NCBI GenBank assembly: GCA_029262855.1
Contig: JAJCYP010000030.1
Coordinates: 69,111 to 133,110, forward strand
Length of the DNA stretch: 64,000 bases
Direction: 5' to 3'
Source of the DNA: Bacteroidota bacterium
GTDB taxonomy: Bacteria; Bacteroidota; Rhodothermia; Rhodothermales; UBA10348
Numbering within the stretch: the stretch's first letter is position 1; each line of letters opens with the position of its first letter. The notes beneath the pieces were generated by a model. It saw nothing but the letters and a program-made list of their open reading frames with translations. It ran no database searches and was not told the origin of the DNA. Positions 29,958-54,609 of the stretch are shown piece by piece. A program made the position numbers and the translations under genes.

Positions 29958-30347
29958 ATGCCCCAAACCCTAATGGCATTCCTGGCGATGATGGTTGCGA
30001 GTATTGCAGCCTACAATCAACAGATGTCGTCCGTTCGCTCTCAGGAGGATCGCATCCGAAGCGAACTGGAAATGATGGCGAGTGCCGTAGCCCTGCATGA
30101 AATCGAAGTCACGGCGGCCTCCAAGAGCTGGACTGCGCTGGACGATCTCGATGACACGTCCGGAACCGCAGACTTCTCGCTCGACACGATCAGCGTTGCC
30201 TTCAACTGGGAGTGGGATGTTCGGTATGTCGATGATCTCGGTGAAATCTCTGCCACTCCCACGGACCTCAAGGAAGCCGAGGTAACCATTACCCATGACC
30301 GCTGGCCCATTGATCTGGTCATCATAGCACGGACGTTTGGACTGTGA
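29958..30347 (+). CDS. Minor-pilin-like membrane-anchored protein 1
   Basis: 129-residue protein with one N-terminal hydrophobic helix (LMAFLAMMVASIAAYNQQ) that runs into an amphipathic helix (RSQEDRIRSELEMMASAVAL) and then a small beta-rich domain. This is the layout of type IV minor pilins or pseudopilins. There is no normal prepilin leader, no cleavage Gly followed by Phe/Met and no Glu at position 5. The C-terminal half (TVTHD-like ...AEVTITHDRWPIDLVIIART) resembles small pilin globular domains. It overlaps the next gene by 4 bp (GTGA). Role inferred from shape and locus only. Confidence 0.6.
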   Translation: MPQTLMAFLAMMVASIAAYNQQMSSVRSQEDRIRSELEMMASAVALHEIEVTAASKSWTALDDLDDTSGTADFSLDTISVAFNWEWDVRYVDDLGEISATPTDLKEAEVTITHDRWPIDLVIIARTFGL

Positions 30348-30916
30348 ACGTAGTACTGGACAATATGTCGGCGACCATCGTGTTCGCCACAATCGCTTTT
30401 GTGCTGGCCATCACCCAGTTCAACATGCAGCAGGACACGGCCGAGGCGACGATAGCCTACATGGCCAAGAAGCACCTGCTCGGATTTGCGGAACTGATTG
30501 AGGACGAATTCGAACTGATAGGCGAGGGCATATCGGGGACCAAGATTGAGTCCCTCACCAGCGACTCAGACGGGAGAACCACTTCGTTCATCTTCAATCG
30601 CGAGATCAGCACGGTGGACACGCAGATCGAGTACCGCCTGGTTCCAGTGGATACGGTACAGTCCAAGGGCCGAGACGTCCCCATCTTCAGGGTCGATCGC
30701 TATGAGGGCACAACGAAGATTGGAGGCGGCCCATCCATGCTCAGTGACTTCAGAGTCGAGCTCCTCACGAGTTCGGGAGGGGCCGCGTCGACCTCTACGG
30801 CAAAAGTGGTGAAGATTACGATGTCCCTCGCCCACAACCTGGGGAACATGGACGACAGCAATGTCAACGTCAGCTATTGGGGAATGACTCTTCGGCCGGC
30901 CAGTCTGGACACCTGA
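30344..30916 (+). CDS. Minor-pilin-like membrane-anchored protein 2 (PilW-like)
   Basis: 190-residue protein. One hydrophobic helix near the N-terminus (MSATIVFATIAFVLAITQFN) continues as an amphipathic helix (TAEATIAYMAKKHLLGFAEL), followed by a beta domain of about 130 residues. The middle reads like PilW/GspJ proteins (TSFIFNREISTVDTQIEYRL), but the N-terminus lacks a prepilin peptidase site and Glu5. The GTG start at 30344 overlaps the previous stop. Expected to be inserted in the inner membrane and perhaps assembled into a pilus tip complex. Confidence 0.6.
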   Translation: MNVVLDNMSATIVFATIAFVLAITQFNMQQDTAEATIAYMAKKHLLGFAELIEDEFELIGEGISGTKIESLTSDSDGRTTSFIFNREISTVDTQIEYRLVPVDTVQSKGRDVPIFRVDRYEGTTKIGGGPSMLSDFRVELLTSSGGAASTSTAKVVKITMSLAHNLGNMDDSNVNVSYWGMTLRPASLDT

Positions 30917-31043: not shown

Positions 31044-32705
31044 ATGGGAAAGGCAGCGCTGATACTCGTCACGGCCGTGACATTCGCCGGCGGACTCGGC
31101 TACATGAACCAGAACCGGACCAAGACGGATTCCGCCGTCCAGGAGGCACTCTACGAGCACGGCATCCTGGCGCGAGAGATTGCCAAATCCGGTTTCAACG
31201 TTCTCAAGAGCCGGGTCGCGGCTGATTTTGACAACTACAGGTTGTCCGAGGCCGATCGAAGCCACAGGATGGGGAAGATGGACCTGGGCGCCTCCGGGAC
31301 CGCCGGTGGCCCTGTCGCCTTGACGGTGACGGGATACTACAACGATGCCGAGTTCACGATATCGGGCACGATGCAGAGGGGTGGAAGCTCCATTCTCGAC
31401 GCCCTGACCATTGATGGACTGTTGAAGAGTATGCAAGTCAAGAAAGACTCCGACATTTCAGGGTTGGACACCGACCCTGACGGAACCGACGGATCCGGAC
31501 TGGATGTGCACTCTGTTCGCTCGATACTGGCTGCGGCCCACCTGGAGGTTCTGGCCGAGGGGCCACCGGGGCTATTCGCGGGAGTCGCGGGTCTCAACGA
31601 TGTAGTCACAGGCACGGAGACCGACATCTGGGCGCTGATGTCCGCAGTAGAAGACTATGCGGGAGCAGACTTAATTGAATACAGCAGCAAGCAGACGTTT
31701 GATGACGTCACGTTTGGAAGCGCAGCCAATCCCGTGGTGGTTCGAGTCAACGGGAAAACCGAGTTGAAGGGAACCACAACGGGGTACGGAATCCTGTTCG
31801 CGAACGGCGGACTCAAGATGAAGGACGACGCTCGCTGGGAAGGTTTGGTTATTGCGACCGGTGACAAGCCGAAGTTTGATTTTAAGGATGATGCCCGGGT
31901 GTATGGCGCTGTAGTTCTCTCGACTGCCTCTGAAGACGGTAGTGGCAAGGATCCGGGAGGATCCAGTAGCGGCCTGCCGGGTGGTCACTTTGACGTTGAT
32001 GTATTTGACGCCGATGTCAGCACCACCAACGAGGTCTATCACGAACACCAGTACGATGACGACTTCGACAGGACTGACGTCAATATTCTAGGCTACACCG
32101 GTTGCAAGACGGGTGGTGGTCTGTGTTGGGATGACATCATGAGCGGGGAAACCGACGTGTTTGTCTCGTTTCTCAATGCTGGATTCAGCAGCGGCTCCTA
32201 CCGCATCAAGTCTTCCTTTGGTGATCTGACCGGCAATCCGGCAGACGGCCTGGCGCCGACGCTTGTGGATGCCACCACGCTGGACGAATTCTGGGTCAAC
32301 TTCGACGCACTCTGCTCGCTTCAGGAGTCCAGCCCGGGCACGGTGCAGAAGGACGCGGCGAACCGCAACGGAGCATTCAGCATCCAGGTCCATGACGCCG
32401 CCGGAGGCTCTCCGGGGGCCCTGCTGTATGAACTGTCCGTCTATCACCACACGGGCAACGAGTTGCTTTGCGGAACCACGCCAGCGCCCGATCCCGATCT
32501 GGACGGAGACGAAATGACCTACGGACGCGAGATGAAGGTCAAGTTGGACAAGAACGCCTTGCTTCAGTACAGCTCCAGCGCTCTGGAAAATGCTTTCAGC
32601 CTACTGTCGGGATATAGTCTTGGCAGCGGCGACGTCCAGCTGGTCAACATGTCCGAGTCAGGAATTCGTCCAAGCCGGAAGGCGCACGCTGTGATGGGGC
32701 AGTAG
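31044..32705 (+). CDS. PilX-like minor pilin paralogue A (without Asp-rich insert)
   Basis: 553 residues. It begins MGKAALILVTAVTFAGGLGY, a hydrophobic helix starting almost at the initiator Met, then an amphipathic segment (ALYEHGILAREIAKSGFN) like PilX/GspK pilins. The central part contains repeated short beta rungs (VVVRVNGKTELKGTTTGYG, LFANGGLKMKDDARWEGLVI, ARVYGAVVLS) that suggest a bactofilin-like beta-solenoid. The C-terminal part (APTLVDATT, LSVYHHTG) is shared with the next gene. No Glu5 and no classical prepilin cleavage site. Flanked by its own promoter and a strong terminator, so it is a monocistronic unit. Confidence 0.65.
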   Translation: MGKAALILVTAVTFAGGLGYMNQNRTKTDSAVQEALYEHGILAREIAKSGFNVLKSRVAADFDNYRLSEADRSHRMGKMDLGASGTAGGPVALTVTGYYNDAEFTISGTMQRGGSSILDALTIDGLLKSMQVKKDSDISGLDTDPDGTDGSGLDVHSVRSILAAAHLEVLAEGPPGLFAGVAGLNDVVTGTETDIWALMSAVEDYAGADLIEYSSKQTFDDVTFGSAANPVVVRVNGKTELKGTTTGYGILFANGGLKMKDDARWEGLVIATGDKPKFDFKDDARVYGAVVLSTASEDGSGKDPGGSSSGLPGGHFDVDVFDADVSTTNEVYHEHQYDDDFDRTDVNILGYTGCKTGGGLCWDDIMSGETDVFVSFLNAGFSSGSYRIKSSFGDLTGNPADGLAPTLVDATTLDEFWVNFDALCSLQESSPGTVQKDAANRNGAFSIQVHDAAGGSPGALLYELSVYHHTGNELLCGTTPAPDPDLDGDEMTYGREMKVKLDKNALLQYSSSALENAFSLLSGYSLGSGDVQLVNMSESGIRPSRKAHAVMGQ

Positions 32706-32805: not shown

Positions 32806-32869
32806 CCGACTTGAATGAACCGTGGATTCCCCGCAATGCGGAGTGAATCTACACCAACAGAAGAGCAGC

Positions 32870-35158
<2,289 letters not shown>

Positions 35159-35204: not shown

Positions 35205-36644
35205 GTGACTCAGAAAAAGGAAACAGTTTCCAGAAGGCAGGCCCAGTTTCGGAAGAGACTGGGCCTTCTTCGCGTGTGGCTGGCTCGACCCGTAGACGCG
35301 GCGCCGCTGGCGTATTTCCGGTTCGTCTTCGGCGCGATCATGGTCTGGGAGGTGTATCGCTACTGGTCCAAGGGGTGGATCGACCGGTACTACGTTGAAC
35401 CCCAACTCTTCTTTACCTACCCGGGATTCGGTTGGGTCAGCCCCTGGCCAGAACCGTGGATGGAAGTCCATTTCGCCATTCTGGCCGTCCTGGCTGCGGC
35501 GATTGCGCTGGGCCTGGCCTACAGGATTGCAGCCCCGCTGTTTGCGCTTGGATTCTGGTACGTGTTTCTCCTGGACCAGTCCAACTATCTCAATCATTTC
35601 TATCTGATCGCTCTCGTCGCAACGATTCTGTCGTTCTTGCCGGCCGAGCGCTACGCATCGCTGGATGCAATCTTGCGACCCGAGCTCCGCCGGCGTTGGG
35701 TTCCGTCGTGGACTCTGTGGGTCATCCGATTCCAGTTGGGGGTCGCCTACATCTACGGCGGGCTGGCCAAGATCAATGCCGATTGGCTGGCCGGTCGGCC
35801 CATGGATGACTGGCTTCAGGGATCGAGCGACATATGGCTGGTGGGGCCGTATCTGGAGTTGCCCATCGCGGCCCTGTTGCTCTCGTGGGGTGGTCTTGCG
35901 TTCGATCTGTTGGTCGTACCTGCTCTGGTTTACCGTCGAACCCGCGGGGTCGCGGTCGTTGCCGTGGCGGTCTTTCACCTGATGAACTCACAGATCTTCT
36001 CGATCGGCATCTTTCCCTGGTTCATGCTCGCCGCAACGCCCGTGTTCTTCGGCACGCCCTGGGGGTCAGGTCATCGCGTGAAGGCGGTCCGAGAAAAAAT
36101 CGCGTCCGGTGCCTGCGTTTCAATTGCATTCAGTCGACTCGCGTCCGGCCTGCTCGGCACCTATGTGGTAATCCAGCTACTGGTCCCGTTCCGGCACCTC
36201 GCCTATCCGGGCAATGTGAGTTGGACTGAAGAGGGCCACCTGTTTTCCTGGCACATGAAGCTCCGCGACAAGTCGGGGAGGATCGAGTTCACGGCGCACG
36301 ACCCGAAAACGGGACGTCGCTGGGCGTTCGATCATCGGGATTTCCTGAGCGCGCGACAGGCCCGAAAGATGACGGTCCGACCCAATTTGATTGCCCAGTT
36401 CGCCCGCAAGGCAAAGCCGCGACTCGAGGCATCGCTGGGCGTAACTGGCCTTGAGATCCGCGGGTCGGCCATGGTCTCACTCAATGGACGGGACCGGCGA
36501 CCCATGATCGACCCGGACGTGGACCTGGCCAGTGCTACCTGGGGATGGAAGCCCGCAGATTGGATCCGGCCGCTTGAAGGCGAATCGTTTGCTCAGGGAG
36601 GGGGGCGGTCGGTCCACGTGGGCGCCCGAAGTGATGACCGATGA
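35205..36644 (+). CDS. Vitamin K-dependent gamma-carboxylase-like (HTTM domain) membrane protein
   Basis: 479-residue polytopic protein homologous to the membrane part of GGCX. Matching blocks are FLLDQSNYLNHFYLIALVA then SFLPAERYASLDAIL, AYIYGGLAKINADWL and FHLMNSQIFSIGIFPWFMLA, plus FSWHMKLRDK in the lumenal-side domain. Family members use reduced vitamin K to carboxylate Glu. From memory, the human catalytic base is the Lys in LDKTSWNNH; here the aligned residue is Gln125. The GTG start follows the Asp-rich pilin-like gene by 46 bp, so that product is a candidate partner, though it is Asp- not Glu-rich. Activity unproven. Confidence 0.85.
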   Translation: MTQKKETVSRRQAQFRKRLGLLRVWLARPVDAAPLAYFRFVFGAIMVWEVYRYWSKGWIDRYYVEPQLFFTYPGFGWVSPWPEPWMEVHFAILAVLAAAIALGLAYRIAAPLFALGFWYVFLLDQSNYLNHFYLIALVATILSFLPAERYASLDAILRPELRRRWVPSWTLWVIRFQLGVAYIYGGLAKINADWLAGRPMDDWLQGSSDIWLVGPYLELPIAALLLSWGGLAFDLLVVPALVYRRTRGVAVVAVAVFHLMNSQIFSIGIFPWFMLAATPVFFGTPWGSGHRVKAVREKIASGACVSIAFSRLASGLLGTYVVIQLLVPFRHLAYPGNVSWTEEGHLFSWHMKLRDKSGRIEFTAHDPKTGRRWAFDHRDFLSARQARKMTVRPNLIAQFARKAKPRLEASLGVTGLEIRGSAMVSLNGRDRRPMIDPDVDLASATWGWKPADWIRPLEGESFAQGGGRSVHVGARSDDR

Positions 36645-37074: not shown

Positions 37075-38448
37075 ATGTACCGAGACTTACCGCTACCTAC
37101 CTTTTCCGTCGCTGACGCGCCCGGCGGCCGTCCTCGGACGGCCAAAGACGCACGTGCGCTGATGGCCCAGCGGGGCCACACTCCGTCGGCACCCAAGAGG
37201 CAGTCCACTGCGGCACTGAGAGGCCAGTTCAGCCACGAAGTCCCGATGATCATCCGGGAGATGGCTGAGAAGATCCCATACCAGTTTATGGGTTCCGACC
37301 GGGTGTTGTTCGCCTCGGAGCAGGTGCAACGTCTACCCGCCGTGGACAGGCAGGACATGCGGGAGTTCTTCCACCGCGTGGTCCGGCACATGCTGACTCT
37401 GGGCGCGAGTGACATAGACCTGGGAGGGACCTCGTCGAGGGGTTCCATCTGGCTCCGCATACACGGCGAAAAACGGCCCATCCATCAGTTTGGCATGTTT
37501 ACGCCCGATGAGTTTACCGTGCTCATCCTGAATCTGCTGAACGACAAGAGCCGTGTGGTTCTCGAGGAGCACAGGTCCTCCGACTTCTCCTTCTCGCTGC
37601 CCATTGAGGGAGACCGACAGGTCCGGTTCCGGGCATCGGCATACTACGAGATGGACCAATTGGCGCTCAACATGCGCGCGATCACCGACTCGGTACGCCC
37701 ACTCAAGTCGCTCGACCTGCACCCCCAAATCGAGCGTGGTCTGATGTTCAGGCACGTTCGGGACGGACTGACAATCATTGCGGGTGTGACCGGCTCGGGT
37801 AAGAGTACGACGCTGGACGCCATCATCGACGCGAACAACAAGGACTTCGCCGGGCACATTGTTGTGCTCGGCCAGCCTATCGAGTACATGCACCAGTCCC
37901 ACCGGTGCATTGTTCGGCATCGGGAGGTTGGGCGCGACGTCATGTCGTTCAAGCAGGGCATAACCCAGTCTCTTCGACAGGACCCGGATATCGTGGTCAT
38001 CGGTGAGATGAGAGATCCGCAGACCATTTCCGCCACGCTCGAAATCACGGACTCCGGCCACAAGGTGTTTACGACGCTCCATACCTCCTCCGCCGTGGAG
38101 TCGATTGACCGAATCATCGCCGAGTATCCAACCGACGAGCAGGACCGGGTCCGCGGTCGCCTGGCCGACGTACTTCGTTGCGTCATTGCCCAGAAGCTGG
38201 CACCCCGGGTGGGCGGCGGGCGCGTGATGACCAAGGAGGTCCTCTCGCTGGATTCATCGGCGCGCGCCGCCATCAAGAGCGACAACGCCTCCGAGATTTA
38301 TCAGATGATGTGGGAGGGTGGAGCACAGGGCATGACGACCCTGGAGCAGGATCTGTTTCGCCTTCTGAAGCAGGGTCTGATCACCGTGGAGACGGCCGTG
38401 AATTACGCAAACAACAAGAAGCGGCTGAATCAGCTGCTTCGTCGATAA
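37075..38448 (+). CDS. PilT/PilU-like type IV pilus ATPase
   Basis: 457-residue hexameric secretion ATPase. An N-terminal unstructured stretch of about 70 residues precedes the PilT-type N domain (MLTLGASDIDLGG) and the motor core. Walker A GVTGSGKST is at 237-245, Walker B DPDIVVIGEMRD at 303-314, and the His box GHKVFTTLHT follows. The retraction-type block AEYPTDEQDRVRGRLADVL and IAQKLAPR favour PilT over PilB. The Asp box, normally EDPIE, reads GQPIE (266-270), losing two acidic residues. First gene of a four-gene operon with no PilB, PilC or prepilin peptidase in this window. Confidence 0.87.
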   Translation: MYRDLPLPTFSVADAPGGRPRTAKDARALMAQRGHTPSAPKRQSTAALRGQFSHEVPMIIREMAEKIPYQFMGSDRVLFASEQVQRLPAVDRQDMREFFHRVVRHMLTLGASDIDLGGTSSRGSIWLRIHGEKRPIHQFGMFTPDEFTVLILNLLNDKSRVVLEEHRSSDFSFSLPIEGDRQVRFRASAYYEMDQLALNMRAITDSVRPLKSLDLHPQIERGLMFRHVRDGLTIIAGVTGSGKSTTLDAIIDANNKDFAGHIVVLGQPIEYMHQSHRCIVRHREVGRDVMSFKQGITQSLRQDPDIVVIGEMRDPQTISATLEITDSGHKVFTTLHTSSAVESIDRIIAEYPTDEQDRVRGRLADVLRCVIAQKLAPRVGGGRVMTKEVLSLDSSARAAIKSDNASEIYQMMWEGGAQGMTTLEQDLFRLLKQGLITVETAVNYANNKKRLNQLLRR

Positions 38449-38463: not shown

Positions 38464-40191
38464 ATGAAACTGGGATCATCAAGAGACCTTGTCCTGGGCA
38501 TCGCGGTAACCTACCGTGCGGTTCACGGCGTGCTGGTCAAGAACACGCCCGAGGGCCCGGAGGTCGTCCGGCACTTCGACCGCCCCCGCAACATCACGGA
38601 GAACATGCCCACGGGCGCTCCGTCAGACTTTCAGTTCGTCGAGGAGGCGGATCCTGAGGTGAACTTCATCACGGGCGTGCCGGAAACCGACGCCGCCACG
38701 CTCTTCCTGGCCTCAGAGTTCGATGGGGCCAGCCCCACTGGAGAGACGACCGGCTTCGAGGCCATGGGTGCCTCCACGATCGAAATCGAACTGACGGATA
38801 TTCTCGACGAGTGCGCCGAGGCGGGGTATCCCGACCCTGAAGTTGCTTTTTGCGTCGGCTCGACAGACCTGGACTACCACGAAGTCCTGGTTCGCTCCAA
38901 GAAGGGGGCCCAGGACCGCGCCGCAAAGAAGGGGAAAGGCAAGCGTCAGGAAAACGGCAAGCTTATACAGCACCTGGCCGCGTCCACGGACTCGAAGTTC
39001 GATCCGGACCAGACGATCTTCATCCCGATGACCCCGAACGAGGAGCGCGTACCTCGCTACCTCGCGGTGTGTGCCCGTCCGAGCGAGATCATCGTACCGA
39101 CTCTTCGCCGATTGGCCGCGCGCAAGCGGACGATTTCCGTTGGCGTGATTGAGACGGAGGTCAGCCTCCTGCTCGGCATGGTGCGCCGGATGGTGGCCGA
39201 TGCCGATGAAGGTCGTACGCCGCCCTCGCGCCTTCTCGTGCGTGTCGGTGCCGACGACACGGTCATTCTGCTTCTGGAAGGCAACAATCTGAAGCACGTC
39301 GAGTCGCTTCGGTCCATCACGTCCTTCGATTCGCCGGACACCGTCTGTTCTCGCATTCTCCTGCTCCAGGACGAGCAAGGCTTTTCCGATCCTGACGAGA
39401 TGCTGGTCTTGGGTGAGGAAAACGAGGAGTCCCTGACACGGCGTCTGGGTGAGTTCTTCGAGGACACCGAGGTCAGGAGTCTACGTCCGCAGCTGCCGCG
39501 CAGCAGGGATGACCTGGACGAGGAATATTCCCGGGAGGGAACGCTGGCGGCCGCTGCCATTGTTCGTCACCTGACGGACCCGCAGGGCAAGGTCTACTTC
39601 GAGCCCGTCACGCTGCTGCCAAAGAAGCTGTTTCGCCGCGGAATCAGGCTGGAAGGCCTCAAGTGGCAAGTCGTCCCCATGATGGTGGTCCTGTTTGCGA
39701 CGGTGCTGTTCTTCATGCATCGGTACTTGCGGCAGACGAACGAGGCGAAAAATCTCGAGATCAAACTCGGCGAATACCCGGCCGAAATGGTCGAGGGCAA
39801 CAAGGAAAACCTGCAGGCCCGCATCGATTCCATTCAGGCCGTCACGGCCGGATACATCCAGGCACTTTACGTCCTGGACAGCATCCTTGTGGGGAGTGAC
39901 CGCTGGAGCCGCACCATGGAGCAAACCTCACGCGAGGCGGCCTCCGTTCCAGGTATTTGGATTGAGAAGTGGGAAGAAGGAGGCGGACTCCTTGAGCTGG
40001 AGGGGACCGCAACCGATCGGGATCAGGTGGTTCGGTACGCCGCCAGAATGGACGGTCAGATACAGAGCCTCTCGTTTGGCGAGATTCGCGATTGGCCCGT
40101 CTACCAGTTCAAGATGGCCGTGCCTCTTCCCGACGAATTGCCAGCGGCCGCACAGTTCCTCCGCGAACAGGCTCGCTCATCCGGAGAGTAA
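38464..40191 (+). CDS. PilM/PilN-like fused pilus assembly protein (GspL-like)
   Basis: 575 residues: an actin-like cytoplasmic part of about 390 residues (RDLVLGIAVTYRAVHGVLV at the N-terminus, EVAFCVGSTDLDYHEVLV, VGVIETEVSLLLGMV, RLLVRVGADDTVILLLEG), then one membrane helix (WQVVPMMVVLFATVLFFM, about 401-418), a coiled coil and a small periplasmic domain. This is PilM plus PilN in one chain, as in GspL. A good GGAGG Shine-Dalgarno lies 6 bases before ATG 38464. Only 3 bp separate it from the PilO-like gene. It would form the inner-membrane platform with the ATPase. Call based on architecture and order; sequence similarity is weak. Confidence 0.7.
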   Translation: MKLGSSRDLVLGIAVTYRAVHGVLVKNTPEGPEVVRHFDRPRNITENMPTGAPSDFQFVEEADPEVNFITGVPETDAATLFLASEFDGASPTGETTGFEAMGASTIEIELTDILDECAEAGYPDPEVAFCVGSTDLDYHEVLVRSKKGAQDRAAKKGKGKRQENGKLIQHLAASTDSKFDPDQTIFIPMTPNEERVPRYLAVCARPSEIIVPTLRRLAARKRTISVGVIETEVSLLLGMVRRMVADADEGRTPPSRLLVRVGADDTVILLLEGNNLKHVESLRSITSFDSPDTVCSRILLLQDEQGFSDPDEMLVLGEENEESLTRRLGEFFEDTEVRSLRPQLPRSRDDLDEEYSREGTLAAAAIVRHLTDPQGKVYFEPVTLLPKKLFRRGIRLEGLKWQVVPMMVVLFATVLFFMHRYLRQTNEAKNLEIKLGEYPAEMVEGNKENLQARIDSIQAVTAGYIQALYVLDSILVGSDRWSRTMEQTSREAASVPGIWIEKWEEGGGLLELEGTATDRDQVVRYAARMDGQIQSLSFGEIRDWPVYQFKMAVPLPDELPAAAQFLREQARSSGE

Positions 40192-40194
40192 ATC

Positions 40195-41202
40195 ATGGGA
40201 CCTGCCAACAACTTTCTCGTGATCGGAACGATCTGGCTCCTGTCAGTCGGGCTCGGCACGTGGATGACTTTTTTCAAGCAGCCTTCTGAGCTGGAAGACC
40301 TTCGGGCCACCGAACAGATGGCGCGAATTCACCAAAGCGATGTCGCCTCGCTGTTGACCGAGGAGTCCCAAATGCTGGGGAAGGCTTCGGCCATCCAGGC
40401 CCAATGGGACTCCCGATACAAGACGATTCCCAAGCGCCTGGAGACGCATGAGGTCATCGCCTATCTGAATGGACTGACCATGTCGGGTTTCGAGAGCTTC
40501 AACGTCACCTACGACGAGAACCTCGGCGGCGCGGACTTCAACACGCATGTCTTTTCGATTCAGGGCCGGAGCACCTATGCCGCACTCTACGAGTTCGTCT
40601 GGGCCATTGAGAATTACCGATCATTCTATCGACTCGCCCGATTCGAACTGTCGCACATCGACCTGCCGTCCGTCGACAAGAAAACCGGTCGCGACCGCGT
40701 TGACGTCTACGTCTCTTTCGACTTCAAATTGCACGCCTTCTACGGAGGCAAGGCCGGGCTCAGCGCCGACGACCAACTGCCCGGAACGATGATGGAAGGC
40801 ATCACGCCATCCACCGAGCTGCCTCCGGTTCCCGCGTCCGTTCTCCCGGCCCGGACGCCGGCCAAGGACCCCTTCTATCCGATCATCATGTCGGATATCC
40901 CGCCGAACACGCACGACCTCCTTGATCTCGACTTCGCAGATCTCATCTCGATCGTCGACGGCAAGGCTGTCTTCACGATCGTCAGCCGTAACCAGACGGG
41001 AGATACCAGCTCGCGGCTTGTCACGGTTGGAGTCGGAGACGATGTCTATCTCGGCAGAATCGTGATGGTTGACCCCATCAACAACAAAGTGGTGGCCCGC
41101 CTGAACATCGGCGGCATCATGGACGAGCGGATCTTCGAATTGGAGACCGCAGCCAACTTCCGCCAGGCCATCGGCCCTGCCCAACTGGCACCCTCAAACT
41201 GA
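40195..41202 (+). CDS. PilO-like inner-membrane pilus assembly protein
   Basis: 335 residues with one N-terminal membrane helix (FLVIGTIWLLSVGLGTWMTFF), a coiled-coil segment (ELEDLRATEQMARIHQSD) and a ferredoxin-like periplasmic domain (THVFSIQGRSTYAALYEFVW, YRLARFELSHIDLP). That is the PilO/GspM layout. The C-terminal 120 residues (from about 215) resemble a PilP-like HR domain (FTIVSRNQTGDTSSRLVTVG, VYLGRIVMVDPINNKVVARL), so PilO and PilP functions may be merged here. Inferred from order and topology. Start codon 3 bp after the upstream stop. Confidence 0.65.
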   Translation: MGPANNFLVIGTIWLLSVGLGTWMTFFKQPSELEDLRATEQMARIHQSDVASLLTEESQMLGKASAIQAQWDSRYKTIPKRLETHEVIAYLNGLTMSGFESFNVTYDENLGGADFNTHVFSIQGRSTYAALYEFVWAIENYRSFYRLARFELSHIDLPSVDKKTGRDRVDVYVSFDFKLHAFYGGKAGLSADDQLPGTMMEGITPSTELPPVPASVLPARTPAKDPFYPIIMSDIPPNTHDLLDLDFADLISIVDGKAVFTIVSRNQTGDTSSRLVTVGVGDDVYLGRIVMVDPINNKVVARLNIGGIMDERIFELETAANFRQAIGPAQLAPSN

Positions 41203-41215
41203 CGGGCCCCAAGCA

Positions 41216-42559
41216 ATGAAAACATCTCGCATCGCCCTTCTTCTGGTCGTCGCCCTGATAGGCGCCTCGACCGTTCAGGCCCAGCGCGTGCCGCAGCGTG
41301 CCCTGAGGACGTACATCCCGGAAGACCAGCTGGTATCCTTTCTGCCCTCGACACCGATGTCCACCTACCTGCAGTTGGTGAATCCCATTTTTGCCCGGGT
41401 GGCCGGCAAGGAGGTCATCGACCCCGATGGAATGGACTTCGAGATCGGGATCCCTCTCCAGGCCATGCATTTTCTGGATGCGACGGAGATGGTCCTGGCG
41501 TACAACGGATACGTCCTGCGTGAGACGGACAAGTACTTCATGGTCGAACCAGCTGCTCCGATCGACCCCGTGGATCCCATACCGGGCGGGATGACGATTG
41601 ACCCGGCGACGGGCGCTGCAGTCGTGGGCCTGGCCTCGCTGGCTACAAAGCAGGTCCGCATCAGCGCCGTCCTTTTCGAACTGAACCACACCAAGGCACG
41701 TGACTCCGGCATCAATTGGAGCGTCATCTTTGGCGAAGCGAGCGCGGCCGCGGCAGCCGGTGGCGGCTCGACATCAGCGGGCGGCGGCGGTCAGGGTCTC
41801 AATTTTTTCCTGAAGACCGATGAACTGTTCAAGCCCCTGAACGACTTTCTGATCTCGCCAAGTGTGATAGATCTGAAAGATCTCAAGTCCCTCATCCAGC
41901 TTGCCGAGGCTTCAGGCGTTGGTGAGACGATTGCAAGCCCCGAAATCACCGTGCAGTCTGGACAGAAAGGCAATTTTCAGAGCGGTCAGGACATTCCGAT
42001 CCAGACGTTGGACTTCTCGGGCAACACGATCACCACGCTGCTGCAGACCGGTATCATCATCAATGTAACGCCCACGATTATCACCGAACTCAGCCCGGAT
42101 TCGGTGGAGGTGGAGATTGTCCATCTGGATGTCAGCGTGGAGCGCTCGTCCAGCCGTCCGTCAACGGCAGGTCCGATCATAGACCGCAGCCAGGCCGGGA
42201 CCCAGGTCGTGTCGCTCAACGGTGAGCAGGTCATGATCGGTGGACTCTACAGCACCGATGAGGCCGTTTCACGTCGTGGCGTACCGTTTCTCAAGGATCT
42301 GCCAGGGTGGTTCTTCGGCCTGAAATATCTCTTCTCGCGTTCCCAAACCACCGTCTCGCAGAAGGAACTGCTCATGGTTCTGCAGGCCGACATCGTCGAG
42401 CCCCTGCTCACCCGGTCGGAGAAACCCTACCAGCAGGATCTTCTGGGTCGTCGACGTCAGCAGGTTCAGGATGCGCTCCGTCGCTTCAACGAGCAGGTTA
42501 ACGCCAACAGGGAGAAGCCGAACCGTTACGACGGCCAGAACGAGGAAAAGAAAAATTAG
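41216..42559 (+). CDS. Secretin (PilQ/GspD-type outer-membrane channel)
   Basis: 447-residue outer-membrane pore subunit. Signal peptide IALLLVVALIGASTVQA, a short N domain (to about 130), then the secretin core: VRISAVLFELNHTKARDSGI, a Gly-rich insertion, IQLAEASGVGETIASPEITV, the GQDIPIQTLD block and TGIIINVTPTI, followed by GEQVMIGGLYSTDE, VPFLKDLPGWFFGLKYLFSR and ELLMVLQADIVEPL. It is short for PilQ or GspD because most periplasmic N0-N3 domains are missing. Last gene of the operon, followed by a terminator at 42630. Confidence 0.9.
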   Translation: MKTSRIALLLVVALIGASTVQAQRVPQRALRTYIPEDQLVSFLPSTPMSTYLQLVNPIFARVAGKEVIDPDGMDFEIGIPLQAMHFLDATEMVLAYNGYVLRETDKYFMVEPAAPIDPVDPIPGGMTIDPATGAAVVGLASLATKQVRISAVLFELNHTKARDSGINWSVIFGEASAAAAAGGGSTSAGGGGQGLNFFLKTDELFKPLNDFLISPSVIDLKDLKSLIQLAEASGVGETIASPEITVQSGQKGNFQSGQDIPIQTLDFSGNTITTLLQTGIIINVTPTIITELSPDSVEVEIVHLDVSVERSSSRPSTAGPIIDRSQAGTQVVSLNGEQVMIGGLYSTDEAVSRRGVPFLKDLPGWFFGLKYLFSRSQTTVSQKELLMVLQADIVEPLLTRSEKPYQQDLLGRRRQQVQDALRRFNEQVNANREKPNRYDGQNEEKKN

Positions 42560-50111: not shown

Positions 50112-50749
50112 TGACCAACCCTTCCTTTACGCTGTACTTGGCTCGCCACGGCGAGACTGACTACAACCGCAGAAGGCTCATGCAGGGGCGTTCGATAGAC
50201 GCGAGCCTGAATGAGAGGGGGGCTCTGCAGGCCGAGGCCCTGGCCGAGCGGATGGCCGACGTCCCACTCGACGCAGTCTATGCCAGTACCCTGAAGCGAG
50301 CCTGGCAAACGGCGGATCTGCTCGCCAGGCCGCACGGACTGGTGCCACTGCTGCTTCCTGATCTGGTCGAGATGGCTTGGGGAGAGTTGGAGGGGAAGCC
50401 CATCTTGGAATTTGCCGACTATCTCAAAGAGGTGGGCGCCGCATGGAAAACCGGCAGGTTTGAACACCGCATTGGGGGCGGCGAGAGCATACTTGATGTG
50501 CAAGCCCGCGCGAAGGCCGTCTGGACGCACCTGAACGAGAGCCATGCCGATGGTGAGACAGCGTTTGTGGTCACCCACGGCCGCTTCCTTCGGGTTCTCT
50601 TGACGGTGGCGCTTGCAGACCGGGGATTGGCCGACATGGACCGCTTTCCCCATTCGAATACGGGGGTATATCGGCTCGAACGAGCGGCCGGTGTCTGGAC
50701 CTTGACGCTCATGAATTGCACGGCCCACCTGGAGGTTGTACCGCATTGA
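50111..50749 (+). CDS. Histidine phosphatase (phosphoglycerate-mutase-like)
   Basis: 212-residue enzyme with the catalytic LARHGETDYNRRRLMQGRS motif, the second histidine in VVTHGRFLRVLL, and DVPLDAVYASTLKRAWQTAD between them. The motifs fit CobC/PhoE-type broad phosphatases. It overlaps the upstream gene by 1 bp and the isochorismate synthase by 4 bp (TTGA), so it is inside the menaquinone operon. A role in that pathway is suggested only by context; no dedicated phosphatase step is known to me in the classic pathway. Confidence 0.85.
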   Translation: MTNPSFTLYLARHGETDYNRRRLMQGRSIDASLNERGALQAEALAERMADVPLDAVYASTLKRAWQTADLLARPHGLVPLLLPDLVEMAWGELEGKPILEFADYLKEVGAAWKTGRFEHRIGGGESILDVQARAKAVWTHLNESHADGETAFVVTHGRFLRVLLTVALADRGLADMDRFPHSNTGVYRLERAAGVWTLTLMNCTAHLEVVPH

Positions 50750-52122
50750 CTCAGATGGAAATCCTGACCGACGTCCGCGAGAACCTCGCGCTTGCTGTTG
50801 AGCGTGCCGCCATGCAGGGGGGAGGCACGCCGCTGCTCCGAGTTCGTGTTTCGGCGCCGAAGACGGACGCGTTTCGATGGTTGGCGTCGCAGCCGATGGG
50901 GACCCGGGCCCTCTGGTCTTCCCGAGGTACCGATCGGGTGGTGGCGATGTCCGGGATGGCGGACGTCTATGAGGCCGGAGAGCGACCCGATTTTGATCGA
51001 CTGAGTCAGTACATGACGCACCACCTGGCGGGAGCCCATCCCTCCATCCGCTACTACGGCGGAATCCGTTTCGATGGTGGACGATCCATGAGCGAGGAGT
51101 GGTCCTCGTTCGGCTCACTGCGAATGGTCCTGCCCCGCTTCGAACTCGTGATGGATGGGTCCGGTGTGGAGTTGGTCTGCAACCTGGTCCCGCACCACGA
51201 TCGTGCGCGCCTGGCTTCGATTCTGGATGAGATTCGCGCATTGCCCTGGCCGGGTGAGGAGGCCCCGTCGGGCCTTCCGCGAGCCGTGGACCGGCACGAC
51301 CAGCCAGCACGTGCGGAGTGGATGGCTCGCGTTCAGGAATCGCTCGACATCATTGAGGCGAACGAAATCCAAAAGGTGGTTCTGGCCAGGCGTTCCACGT
51401 TCGCGTTTGACGGGCCGGTGTCGCCCATCGACCTCATCGCCCGGCTATACGCTGAAGCTCCCAATCGATTTCACTATCTGGTTGAGACCGAAGATGGCAG
51501 TGCCTTTCTGGGCGCAACTCCAGAGAGGCTGGTCCGGAGAGAGCGGTCCTACGTCTTCACAGAGGCGGTGGCCGGAACCCGCCCGGCGGTGGATGACGAG
51601 ACCGACGATGCCGAACTCCTGGCCGCGCTCATGGCGAGCGACAAGGAGCAACGGGAGCATCTGTGTGTGCGGTGGGCCATCGAAGAAATTCTGCGACCCT
51701 TCTGCGACGAGCTGGTCGTGGATGCCCATGCCACCGAAATGCGGCTTTCCCAGGGCCGGCATCTCGTTTCCCGATTCAACGGCGTCCTGAATGACGGCGT
51801 GGATACCTGGCAACTCGTCCGGCACCTGCACCCCACCCCGGCCGTCGGAGGGTACCCGGCGCCAGCCGCAATTCGGGCGATTCGCAGGATGGAGTCTTTC
51901 GACCGTGGTTGGTACGCGGGACCGATCGGATGGGTGGGTCCTGAGGAGGCGGAGTTTGCCGTCGCACTCCGCTGCGCCCTGGTGACCGGTGACCAAATGC
52001 ACATCTACTCCGGAGCGGGCATCGTCAAGGGAAGCGAGCCGCAGTCGGAGTGGGACGAAATCGAACACAAGATCGTGGACTTTGCCCGCGTCCTGGGTCT
52101 TGCCGGAATCCAAGCCAAATAG
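50746..52122 (+). CDS. menF: Isochorismate synthase
   Basis: First committed enzyme of menaquinone synthesis, converting chorismate to isochorismate. The 458-residue protein has the chorismate-binding core: KVVLARRSTF, FLGATPERLVRRE, TEAVAGTRPA, KEQREHLCVRWAIEEILRPF, HLHPTPAVGGYPAPAAIRAI and GPIGWVGPEEAEFAVALRC, ending in an IYSGAGIVKGSEPQSEWDEI block. I chose TTG 50746 because a GGAGG lies about 10 bases upstream and the start overlaps the previous stop; ATG 50755 is possible. It is followed by menD with a 23-bp overlap. Confidence 0.93.
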   Translation: MTQMEILTDVRENLALAVERAAMQGGGTPLLRVRVSAPKTDAFRWLASQPMGTRALWSSRGTDRVVAMSGMADVYEAGERPDFDRLSQYMTHHLAGAHPSIRYYGGIRFDGGRSMSEEWSSFGSLRMVLPRFELVMDGSGVELVCNLVPHHDRARLASILDEIRALPWPGEEAPSGLPRAVDRHDQPARAEWMARVQESLDIIEANEIQKVVLARRSTFAFDGPVSPIDLIARLYAEAPNRFHYLVETEDGSAFLGATPERLVRRERSYVFTEAVAGTRPAVDDETDDAELLAALMASDKEQREHLCVRWAIEEILRPFCDELVVDAHATEMRLSQGRHLVSRFNGVLNDGVDTWQLVRHLHPTPAVGGYPAPAAIRAIRRMESFDRGWYAGPIGWVGPEEAEFAVALRCALVTGDQMHIYSGAGIVKGSEPQSEWDEIEHKIVDFARVLGLAGIQAK

Positions 52123-53827
52123 CACCCAGGCCTGGACGCACGCCCTCCTGGACGAGTTCGTCAAGGCTGGCGTAACCACTGTATGCCTGTCGCCGGGATC
52201 GCGATCGACGCCTCTGGTGGCCGCCGCGGCCGCTCATCCTGGTCTGCGAATCGTGACACACGTGGACGAGCGCGGAGCGGCGTTCTTTTGCCTGGGGCAC
52301 GGCCGCGCATCCGGGACACCCGCGGTCTGGCTCACTACCTCCGGCACGGCCGTGGCCAACGGATATCCCGCTGTGATTGAGGCGGCGATGGACCACGTGC
52401 CCATGATTTGCCTCACGGCCGATCGTCCGGAAGAACTGCGGGGGACGGGTGCCAACCAGACCATCCGGCAGCCCGGAATATTCGGTGACTACCCGCGTTA
52501 CCAGGTCGATCTGGAGGCCCCATCGCCCGAATCGGATCCTGCCCGGGCCAGGGAGATCGCCCGCACCGCCATTCGGGCCGCCTTGGGTCTTCCGGCGGGC
52601 CCGGTTCATCTGAACTGCCCGTTTCGCAAACCGCTTGAGCCCACCGGTTCATGGCCCGAGGCCAGCCCATCCGCGGGACCGCCTGCGGCGACGTCCGAAA
52701 CGCCTGACGTGACCGCACTGGTCGCGGCGATCAACCGCATTCCGTTCGGCGTGATACTCGCCGGGCGCATGGATGAGGCAACCGCCAGGGCCACAGGCGC
52801 GCTGTCGGAGAAGCTCTCGTGGCCGATTCTGCCTGATATCTGTTCGAGGCGGAGACTGGGGGGGGCGGGGGCTCGGACGCCGGCCGGGTCGCTGACGCCA
52901 GGGGGACCAATGACGATTCGATACGCCCACCTCCTCGCCGGGCGGCCACTTCCCCCCCCCGAGGCCGTGATCCAGATTGGGCGCATGCCGGTCTCCCAGA
53001 GGCTGACGCGGTCTCTGGCCGCCTCGGAGCCAAAGCTGTGGGCCGTGCTCGCGGACGGCCGCGAGCGAATCGACCCGCACCATGCCGCCACCGACCGTCT
53101 CCGCGATGCCTGCACGGCGACGATTGCGCTGACATCACGGGTCGCCGCGAAGGATGCTGACGCCCGTGCCTGGGCCTGGGCGAGCGCCGACCAGCGTCTC
53201 GCGGACCGGTTGCCAGGCGAGTGGACATCACTCAGCGAGCCTGCCGTTGCGGCCAGTGTCGCCGCCCACCTGACCACCCGTGATGCCCTGGTTCTGGCCT
53301 CCAGCATGCCAGTCCGCGATGTCAACACATTCGCGGGCCTCGGAGAACGTCCGGCCATGGTGGTGGCCAATCGGGGAGCAAGCGGGATCGATGGGACCAT
53401 CGCCACGGCGGCCGGCGTCTCGGACGTGCTTTCCAGGACGGCCGCGAGCGGCCGCACAGTCCTGCTGATCGGTGACCTCGCGTTCCTTCACGACCTGAAC
53501 AGCCTCGGGCTGATCCGGGATCGGCGCATCACCGTTGTTGTGGTGAACAATGATGGAGGTGGCATCTTCTCCTTTCTCCCGATTGCGGATCACAGGGATC
53601 TGTTCGAGCCGTACTTCGGCGCGGCGCACGGTCTTCAGTTTGATTCGGCCTCCGCCCTCTACGGCATACCCCACCATCGGCCCACGAGCCTGGCCCAATT
53701 GACGGAACTCCTCGCCAAGGCCAGGGCGAGTCTCTCTCCGGCCATCATCGAGGTGCAGACCTCCCGAGTGGAGAATGCGCAGGAGCACGAGCGCCTCCAA
53801 CAACTGGTTGCGAAGTGGCTGGACTGA
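52100..53827 (+). CDS. menD: SEPHCHC synthase
   Basis: Thiamine-diphosphate enzyme joining isochorismate and 2-oxoglutarate in menaquinone synthesis. Family blocks: AWTHALLDEFVKAGVTTVCL, SPGSRSTPLVAAAA, HVDERGAAFFCLGHGRASG, TADRPEELRGTGANQTI, FGDYPRY, and the cofactor region GDLAFLHDLNSLGL with VVVNNDGGGIFSFLP. TTG 52100 was chosen because it restores the family N-terminus and gives 575 residues, a normal length; the open frame starts earlier, within menF in another frame. Overlaps menH by 13 bp. Confidence 0.93.
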   Translation: MPESKPNSTQAWTHALLDEFVKAGVTTVCLSPGSRSTPLVAAAAAHPGLRIVTHVDERGAAFFCLGHGRASGTPAVWLTTSGTAVANGYPAVIEAAMDHVPMICLTADRPEELRGTGANQTIRQPGIFGDYPRYQVDLEAPSPESDPARAREIARTAIRAALGLPAGPVHLNCPFRKPLEPTGSWPEASPSAGPPAATSETPDVTALVAAINRIPFGVILAGRMDEATARATGALSEKLSWPILPDICSRRRLGGAGARTPAGSLTPGGPMTIRYAHLLAGRPLPPPEAVIQIGRMPVSQRLTRSLAASEPKLWAVLADGRERIDPHHAATDRLRDACTATIALTSRVAAKDADARAWAWASADQRLADRLPGEWTSLSEPAVAASVAAHLTTRDALVLASSMPVRDVNTFAGLGERPAMVVANRGASGIDGTIATAAGVSDVLSRTAASGRTVLLIGDLAFLHDLNSLGLIRDRRITVVVVNNDGGGIFSFLPIADHRDLFEPYFGAAHGLQFDSASALYGIPHHRPTSLAQLTELLAKARASLSPAIIEVQTSRVENAQEHERLQQLVAKWLD

Positions 53828-54609
53828 CCTCCTCCGAATGGGGCCCCGCCAATGCCCCCGTGTTGGTCCTGCTACACGGTTTTATGGGGAGCGGCGACGA
53901 TTGGGCGGCAATCGCGGATGCGCTTCCCGACTTTCGGATTCTGGCTCCAGACCTTCCCGGCCACGGTCGGTCCACAGGCCTGCCTGGCGAGGCCTACACG
54001 CTCACCGGAGCGGCCGAGCTCTGTGCGGGACTTCTGGCCACAGTTGCAGCGGGCGGCGGGCGACCGGTCCTGCTTGCCGGCTATTCGATGGGTGGACGCG
54101 TGGCCCAGGAGATTCTGGCGATGGGCCTCCTGCCGGCTTCAGCCGGGCTCTGCCTCATTGGGGCGCATCCGGGTTTCCAAACCGCAGCGCATCGAAAGGA
54201 GCGCCTCAACGCAGACCGGACGCTCGCAGACCGAATCGAAGAAGACTTCGAGTCCACGCTGGGCGAGTGGCTGGCACTCCCGATGTTCTCAACGCTGACC
54301 CGGGTCCAGCGCCAGGCCCTGACGAGGCGTCGTCTATCGCGGTGCCTGCCCGCTGAGTTGGCCCGGAGTCTGCGCGGCATGTCGACGGGGAGCCAGCCTG
54401 ACCGCCGGTCGGCGCTGGCTGGCGCAGCCTCCCGGATCCGTCTGGTTGCCGGAGAGCGTGATGAGCGGTATGTCCGCCTGCTGTCGGGCCTGGGGCCTGA
54501 CATGGTGACCATAGCCGGGGCCGGACACAACGTGCTGGTTGAGCGGCCCGCAGAGCTGGCTGCGATTCTGCGTGATCTGGCTCGCCGGCAGCTGGACAGC
54601 GAGGCGTGA
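53815..54609 (+). CDS. menH: SHCHC synthase (alpha/beta hydrolase)
   Basis: 264-residue alpha/beta-hydrolase removing pyruvate from SEPHCHC to form SHCHC. Motifs: LLHGFMGSGDDWAAIA, DLPGHGRST, nucleophile elbow AGYSMGGRVA (Ser) and the C-terminal AGAGHNVLVERP (His). The LLHGFMGS and GYSMGGR combination is characteristic for MenH among hydrolases. GTG 53815 overlaps menD. A small CCCTG/CAGGG hairpin lies in the 77-bp gap that follows. menC and menE are not present between here and menB. Confidence 0.88.
   Translation: MAGLTSSEWGPANAPVLVLLHGFMGSGDDWAAIADALPDFRILAPDLPGHGRSTGLPGEAYTLTGAAELCAGLLATVAAGGGRPVLLAGYSMGGRVAQEILAMGLLPASAGLCLIGAHPGFQTAAHRKERLNADRTLADRIEEDFESTLGEWLALPMFSTLTRVQRQALTRRRLSRCLPAELARSLRGMSTGSQPDRRSALAGAASRIRLVAGERDERYVRLLSGLGPDMVTIAGAGHNVLVERPAELAAILRDLARRQLDSEA

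Follow-up and report, generated by a model that had tools for sequence, protein, structure and literature searches.

Among members of the vitamin K carboxylase (VKGC) family, the closest described system to the locus analysed here is human GGCX, whose known target is Glu, according to passages of PMC9146348. In passages of that report and of PMC12589487, Lys218 starts formation of the vitamin K base, the base takes hydrogen from Glu, and CO2 then adds. Passages of PMC12589487 describe Lys218 as essential for catalysis and Lys217 as required for substrate binding, not for catalysis. They further describe the Glu side chain as held by Asn159, His160 and Tyr395, place Met401 and Met402 in the wall dividing the two pockets, and treat Lys154 as an interface residue bonded to Asp442 and Gln446. 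The family also has bacterial members, one of which is encoded in the stretch of 64,000 nucleotides examined in this study (the window), from a genome of the Rhodothermales. To our knowledge, no function is known for the bacterial vitamin K carboxylase homologues. The Leptospira homologue VKC, studied by Rishavy and Berkner, reportedly has an altered activity without protein carboxylation.

The gene at 35205-36644 (forward strand, GTG start, 479 residues) encodes a genuine member of the VKGC/GGCX family. Pfam identified an HTTM transmembrane domain (PF05090) at residues 28-286 (35286-36062; E 2.7e-92, 309.5 bits against a cut-off of 27.7) and a VKGC lumenal, here periplasmic, domain (PF22777) at residues 312-458 (36138-36578; E 1e-41, 142.9 bits against a cut-off of 27.7). 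The latter domain separates the VKGC/GGCX family from proteins that carry HTTM only, and the gene product is the sole match to either domain in the 4.7-Mb genome. A phmmer search of the PDB returned only GGCX chains, with human GGCX the best (E 5.5e-59). The AlphaFold2 model, predicted from 52 sequences, had a pLDDT of 89.1 and a pTM of 0.89, and its top 16 Foldseek matches were all GGCX structures, the first with an E value of 2.8e-25, a TMq of 0.77 over 465 columns and 32% identity; no other protein matched below E 0.1. An earlier note on this DNA had described a GGCX-like protein starting 46 bases past the stop of an Asp-rich pilin-like gene, and both statements were borne out. NCBIfam searches with three proteins gave no match. 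The protein differs from human GGCX in size (479 against 758 residues), with no counterpart of the human sequence beyond about residue 505, which comprises the rest of the propeptide-binding domain and the Arch. The human Cys99-Cys450 pair and Lys217 are absent as well, Phe70, Lys402 and Ala188 taking their places. A full propeptide-binding/Arch region, the Cys99-Cys450 pair and a Glu-rich, Gla-like region in the partner protein, all features of the animal-type system, were not found.

The primary structure was then compared with that of human GGCX in a phmmer pair alignment, gap-free from residue 24 to about 200 of the window protein, and in a MAFFT alignment of 99 rows, 98 of them bacterial and one human GGCX. 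The earlier note had taken Gln125 as a replacement of the catalytic Lys and had proposed on this basis that the enzyme performs epoxidation only or uses another base. In both alignments, Gln125 (35577-35579) faces human Lys154, at the interface of the propeptide-binding and transmembrane domains, and Lys189 (35769-35771) faces Lys218, the catalytic base according to passages of PMC12589487. The column of Lys154 is variable among the bacterial rows, being mostly Gln, Lys, Glu or Ala, and that of Lys218 holds Lys in 97 of the 98 rows (the other has a gap) and in each of a further 90 rows. Judging from these alignments, the assignment of Gln125 is a slip, and with the catalytic Lys present the reason given for epoxidation only or for another base falls. 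Asn130-His131 (35592-35597) correspond to Asn159-His160, which form part of the Glu pocket in passages of PMC12589487. Asn159, His160, Asp222, Trp223, Phe286 and Phe299 are all identical in 97 of the 98 rows, one row having a gap, and His160 is present in the 90 further rows. The equivalents of Trp223, Phe286, Phe294 and Phe299 of the vitamin K pocket are Trp194, Phe257, Phe265 and Phe270. The window protein therefore resembles human GGCX in its two domains and in Lys218, Asn159, His160, Trp223, Phe286 and Phe299.

On the other hand, residues on the side of the substrate pocket are replaced. In the MAFFT alignment, Tyr395, Asp400, Met402 and His404 of human GGCX correspond to His345, His350, Lys352 and Arg354, and the stretch HLFSWHMK (36237-36260) that adjoins the pocket reads YGYSWDMM in the human enzyme. 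We used the columns of human residues 395, 401 and 402 to define subfamilies, with Lys or Arg at 402 designated x-M-K. Among 227 loci, 102 were Y/F-V-M, 77 x-M-K and 46 x-M-M, and two were unreadable; the window protein, with His345, Met351 and Lys352, is an x-M-K enzyme of the H-M-K form. His at 395 is common to the x-M-K and x-M-M types. Four positions at or beside the pocket are more basic in the x-M-K subfamily than in human GGCX, which would suit a polyanionic Asp tract as substrate.

The Y/F-V-M enzymes share both domains and the catalytic residues with the window protein and also occur in its order. They belong to a recurrent operon of Bacteroidota and Rhodothermales (L104-L113 in the discovery set, L160-L249 in fresh genomes) that consists of an imelysin gene, often a DUF4856 gene, the VKGC gene and a TonB receptor gene. 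In all ten discovery loci of this type, imelysin immediately preceded VKGC, and in five of them the TonB receptor followed VKGC. Among the fresh loci, 64 of 68 Y/F-V-M enzymes had imelysin immediately before them in the same direction, against 0 of 22 others. Passages of PMC5609570 name a TonB receptor, VKGC and imelysin together among the Fur-regulated genes of Riemerella anatipestifer. The window enzyme is not of this type, having His, Met and Lys at the signature columns, and its own genome has no match to the imelysin family. In a quick tree, built after leaving out three short rows, the VKGCs of the three genomes of its genus (G000, the window genome, G091 and G092) grouped together with a support of 99, apart from the imelysin-linked VKGCs of the same order and from those of two other genomes in the same family; the deeper forks were weak. 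Upstream of five planctomycete VKGCs (L048, L050, L063, L064 and L068) are a small lipoprotein gene and a pilin-like gene of DUF1559, the latter a second instance of a pilin-like gene near VKGC. Two VKGC genes were found on contigs labelled Nitrosopumilus (L067) and as an archaeal metagenome-assembled genome (L095), which could be binning errors.

The gene preceding VKGC, at 32822-35158 on the same strand, encodes a 778-residue pilin-like exported protein, PilX-like by its position and N-terminus, of which 19% is Asp and to which no Pfam family matched; the Met codon at 32870 is the likelier start. A run of 32 Asp codons with GAC and GAT mixed is found at 34079-34174, and a tandem (Asp5-6)-Gly-Asp-Ser tract at 34409-34621. 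Between the two tracts, at 34304-34405, is the motif CHIPPGNPSNAHTI...AHLNHGD...C. In the form CHIPPGNPxNAHxI...AVxAHLxHGD, this motif occurs inside Asp-repeat proteins of two lineages, in the window and at L078 (near 11955) and L100 (near 8143). Upstream are a paralogous pilin-like gene without the Asp insert (31044-32705, by sequence comparison) and two small genes (29958-30347 and 30344-30916) for which the pilin label was inferred from conserved gene order, with no Pfam match. The next gene past VKGC encodes a T2SSE/PilB-like ATPase (37075-38448, Pfam), followed by PilM-like (38464-40191) and PilO-like (40195-41202) genes, named by position in the conserved order as their orthologues in G092 have no Pfam match, and a secretin gene (41216-42559), whose G092 orthologue, with 73% identity, matches Pfam Secretin. 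All are on the forward strand.

VKGC is co-directional with these pilus-like operon genes, between the last pilin-like gene and the ATPase gene, in all three genomes of the genus found. Five members of the family without VKGC (G095, G082, G101, G087 and G081) have pilin, ATPase, PilM-like, PilO-like and secretin genes in the same order. As the pilus operon occurs without VKGC, the enzyme gene probably joined an existing operon once. Co-occurrence of this pilin with VKGC was rejected beyond the genus, pilin homologues being present in 32 of the 114 genomes of the order and PF22777 in 16. The Asp insert is shorter in G092 and G091 than in the window protein. In the VKGC-free genomes G087, G081 and G080 (L124, L131 and L133), Asp-Lys-Ser repeats replace the Asp repeats in the pilin-like homologues, and the VKGC-free G018 has an Asp-rich pilin-like gene that runs to the contig end. 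We also searched for Glu columns specific to the VKGC-adjacent pilins (4 rows against 11 homologues) and found no convincing cluster. Excluding fragments and copies, Glu content was 4.1-5.2% in the four adjacent proteins against 4.3-8.1% in the 11 non-adjacent homologues, ten of which are from VKGC-free genomes and one (L123) from G097, which has VKGC elsewhere. The pilin-like partner was thus not enriched in Glu, and no Gla-like Glu cluster was seen in it.

Homology clustering of VKGC neighbours recovered mainly imelysin, DUF4856, the TonB receptor and the planctomycete DUF1559/lipoprotein pair, and missed the Asp tracts because these have no shared homology. We therefore scanned the 96 discovery loci (L020 and L022 had been dropped as the same records as L101 and L114) for open reading frames of at least 80 residues regardless of homology, a frame counting as Asp-rich when a stretch of 40 residues contained 14 or more Asp. 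Of the 350 genes no more than two positions from VKGC, 14 were Asp-rich, against 4 of the 808 more distant genes. In six-frame translations of the same set, the 184 kb lying up to 1 kb from VKGC contained 13 Asp tracts, the 167 kb at 1-2 kb three, and the 543 kb at more than 5 kb two; the density thus dropped with distance from 7.1 per 100 kb to about 0.4.

The linkage was seen with one subfamily. In the pooled loci, from which L244, L213 (near-identical to L212) and copies of discovery loci (L250-L254, L280 and L281) were left out, an Asp tract lay no more than 3 kb from VKGC at 14 of 77 x-M-K loci, compared with 1 of 150 others (Fisher 1.2e-6). This single case is L247, whose signature columns are unreadable. 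The remaining 63 x-M-K loci had no tract within this distance, nor did any of the 102 Y/F-V-M and 46 x-M-M loci. The x-M-K loci contained 19 tracts in 408 kb near VKGC against two in 447 kb beyond 5 kb, and the Y/F-V-M and x-M-M types none in 777 kb near VKGC. When VKGCs were clustered, 9 of 26 x-M-K clusters against 0 of 29 others had a tract at 55% identity (Fisher 5e-4), 10 of 42 against 0 of 52 at 60% (p 2e-4), and 2 of 9 against 0 of 20 at the looser 50%, where the difference was not significant (p 0.09).

We then turned to genomes outside the discovery set with the prediction set beforehand. The first fresh set (82 of 395 Bacteroidota genomes, 90 loci; L244, 100% identical to L076, left out of the count) had two tracts at a distance of up to 1 kb from VKGC (176 kb in all) and one in the remaining 1.36 Mb. 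Lys-, Asn- and Ser-rich control tracts showed no peak beside VKGC in this set, and Glu-rich control tracts were absent from the first kilobase and numbered seven at 1-3 kb. The support from this set is weak, because both near tracts are from relatives of the discovery lineages L083 and L086 and the set is mostly of the imelysin type. The second set, from the order of the L026 genome (142 of 396 genomes), comprised 20 of 60 regions chosen blind to Asp content, two of them copies, and 25 new short loci. It contained no new H-M-K enzyme among the loci obtained, two rows being K-M-K, and no new tract. The fresh scans thus added no new tract-bearing lineage, and no further lineage replicated the positive half of the prediction. 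The discovery set therefore supplied most of the positive signal, and what was confirmed of the prediction was mainly its negative part, on the other subfamilies.

The distribution of the repeat over whole genomes was examined with the coding pattern (GAY)5GG, corresponding to Asp5-Gly. All nine matches in the window genome are in the tandem tract of the VKGC-adjacent gene (contig C30, 103519-103733, starting at 34409 of the window). Twenty further genomes were searched, ten picked for a known tract and ten not; L068, L092 and L063 are x-M-M and the rest x-M-K. All matches were within 5 kb of VKGC in L026 (6/6), L031 (5/5), L078 (4/4), L089 (7/7), L055 (2/2) and L035 (2/2), and some in L073 (4/6) and L100 (2/3). 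In L101, two of 15 matches were on the VKGC contig; the other 13 were on contig C623, where pilin-like genes are also encoded. Matches occurred only elsewhere in L042 (7), L038 (10), L028 (4), L024 (4), L068 (2) and L039 (2) and, with one match each, in L062, L083, L053 and L092; the genomes of L096, L044 and L063 had no match anywhere. In total, 43 of 92 matches were within 5 kb of VKGC. Seven of the ten genomes with matches at this distance have none elsewhere, and binomial p values for proximity in the ten single genomes ranged from 4e-4 to 3e-24. None of the seven x-M-K genomes without a previously seen tract (L042, L038, L062, L028, L039, L053 and L096) had a match within 5 kb of VKGC, six having 1-10 elsewhere and one none. 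Within the order of the window genome, at least two matches within 1.5 kb were present in 4 of 5 x-M-K genomes, a grouping assigned by hand, against 5 of 109 others (p 9e-5); with the genus counted once, the figure was 2 of 3 x-M-K genomes (p 0.01). The clusters in VKGC-free genomes of the order are those of G080, G052, G055, G021 and G068. In G080, which has no PF22777, contig C44 carries six Asp5-Gly coding matches at 12803-13005.

The tract cores consist of 66% Asp, 12% Gly, 7% Ser and 6% Glu (5.7%), with short spacers rich in Gly, Ser and Asn. The lengths of the Asp runs peak at five (37 of 107 runs). L083, L086, L246 and L247 have a single long run instead of repeats, in L044 the tract is a mixture of Asp and Glu, and that of L045 is short and is found on a 73-codon open frame on the opposite strand. 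GAC and GAT are irregularly mixed within the runs in genomes of 35-63% G+C, indicating that the runs are not a product of mere triplet slippage and pointing to selection at the protein level. Judged by eye from signal peptides and lipoboxes at their N-termini, the carriers are exported proteins (the start of that at L055 is cut off). In a Saprospiraceae genome, PepSY-like lipoproteins flank VKGC on both sides. Leptolyngbya has an SLH protein, L083 and L086 have proteins with weak DUF4382 matches, and the carrier of a Flavobacteriaceae genome contains SdrD-B and PKD domains. A Bacteroidia genome encodes a Por-secretion protein that shares the CHIPPGN...HGD motif with the window protein, and the carriers from Fulvivirga (L073), from a planctomycete and from a Chitinophagales genome were assigned to no family. 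At L035 and L049, the Asp-repeat protein is encoded two genes from VKGC. By sequence, the partners of the x-M-K enzymes are thus unrelated exported scaffolds in several phyla. The earlier note had looked to co-occurrence of the two genes across genomes. For the pilin homologue itself, the link is absent beyond the genus, whereas Asp tracts on unrelated exported proteins do accompany the same VKGC subfamily in other phyla. Judging from genome context, the window pilin exemplifies a broader association of a single VKGC subfamily with exported proteins that carry Asp repeats.

The frequent location of x-M-K genes beside genes for exported proteins with runs of about five Asp suggests that the runs are the target of the enzyme. 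Taking genome context into account, we consider it probable that the Asp-tract protein is the substrate. The possibility that Asp itself is carboxylated was raised in the earlier note from the supposed loss of the catalytic Lys. That ground is gone, and the co-location of the tracts with the x-M-K subfamily now makes the suggestion better supported; we would still place it a little short of an even chance. Carboxylation of Asp is favoured by the retained catalytic parts, the menaquinone genes and the basic side of the pocket. Such genes are in the window, as the earlier note had correctly stated: a chorismate-binding enzyme (MenF-like) and a MenD-like TPP enzyme are encoded at 50716-53827 on the forward strand, and with an alpha/beta hydrolase that is MenH-like by position the group extends over 50716-54609, as assigned by profile or position. 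The window genome (G000) also has two VKOR-family genes (contig C61, 12943-13323; contig C32, 82592-82990), one in a 432-codon open frame. These might recycle quinone epoxide; bacterial VKORs usually serve disulfide formation.

In the mechanism that we propose, Lys189 would deprotonate menaquinol, which with O2 would become a strong base. The base would take a proton from a side chain held by Asn130 and His131 together with the basic His345, Lys352 and Arg354, and CO2 would add to this side chain, leaving quinone epoxide. As the tracts are rich in Asp and poor in Glu, the favoured product is beta-carboxyaspartate, so that the pilus or cell surface would carry a strongly acidic tract that probably binds calcium. 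We know of no enzyme for Asp carboxylation and of no natural Asp carboxylation by the VKGC family. The mammalian enzyme is said to carboxylate Asp weakly in synthetic peptides, and beta-carboxyaspartate has reportedly been found in E. coli; the term did not appear in the open-access papers matched in our search.

One alternative is classic gamma-carboxylation. The enzyme would then modify the small number of Glu residues that the tract or its flanks contain, with the Asp run as an acidic docking or calcium-binding region. GGCX chemistry acts on Glu, the Asn159/His160 pair of the Glu pocket is conserved, and Glu does occur in the tract cores, most visibly in the mixed tract of L044. However, most tracts contain hardly any Glu, and the VKGC-adjacent pilins show neither enrichment in Glu nor a Gla-like cluster, so that we regard this as unlikely. 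An enzyme that is a menaquinol epoxidase, or whose substrate is a small molecule or a different protein, could have acquired Asp-rich neighbours through shared islands of surface and pilus genes. This would agree with the 63 x-M-K loci that lack a nearby tract, with the entry of VKGC into an existing pilus operon in the genus of the window, and with the Leptospira homologue, which reportedly has a changed activity and does not carboxylate proteins. It does not readily account for partners that are unrelated scaffolds in several phyla, for several genomes in which Asp5-Gly proteins are found solely beside VKGC, or for pocket residues corresponding to Asn159 and His160 kept in all bacterial rows but the one with a gap; we consider it rather unlikely.

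Finally, Asp-rich low-complexity genes may be common in such genomes, and a few could be found beside VKGC by chance or through sampling. The fresh scans brought no new tract-bearing lineage, Asp5-Gly clusters exist without VKGC, and half of the twenty genomes searched had been picked for a known tract. Nevertheless, the steep fall of tract density with distance, the absence of tracts around the Y/F-V-M and x-M-M enzymes and the proximity statistics in ten single genomes make this explanation highly improbable. Our preferred reading, to which we give an even chance, is a menaquinone-dependent, periplasm-facing carboxylase whose x-M-K subfamily acts on exported proteins with (Asp)5-Gly/Ser tracts, here the neighbouring pilin-like protein. 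A more specific proposal, which we put forward tentatively, is that the x-M-K enzymes are aspartyl beta-carboxylases that would use menaquinol, O2 and CO2 to convert (Asp)5-Gly/Ser tags on unrelated exported proteins into beta-carboxyaspartate tracts. With equal reserve, Rhodothermales, other Bacteroidota, Cyanobacteriota and Planctomycetota may possess in this system a bacterial counterpart of the Gla domain with its own enzyme-and-tag code.

No report of a pairing between VKGC and Asp repeats was found in the open-access literature, the scope of our search, with subscription journals and preprints outside it. The repeated pairing of VKGC with an Asp5-Gly/Ser tag provides a testable enzyme-substrate hypothesis, for which the imelysin-linked and x-M-M subfamilies are matched controls. 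If Asp is indeed carboxylated, the finding would bear on the origin of vitamin K chemistry and of Gla-like calcium-binding tracts.
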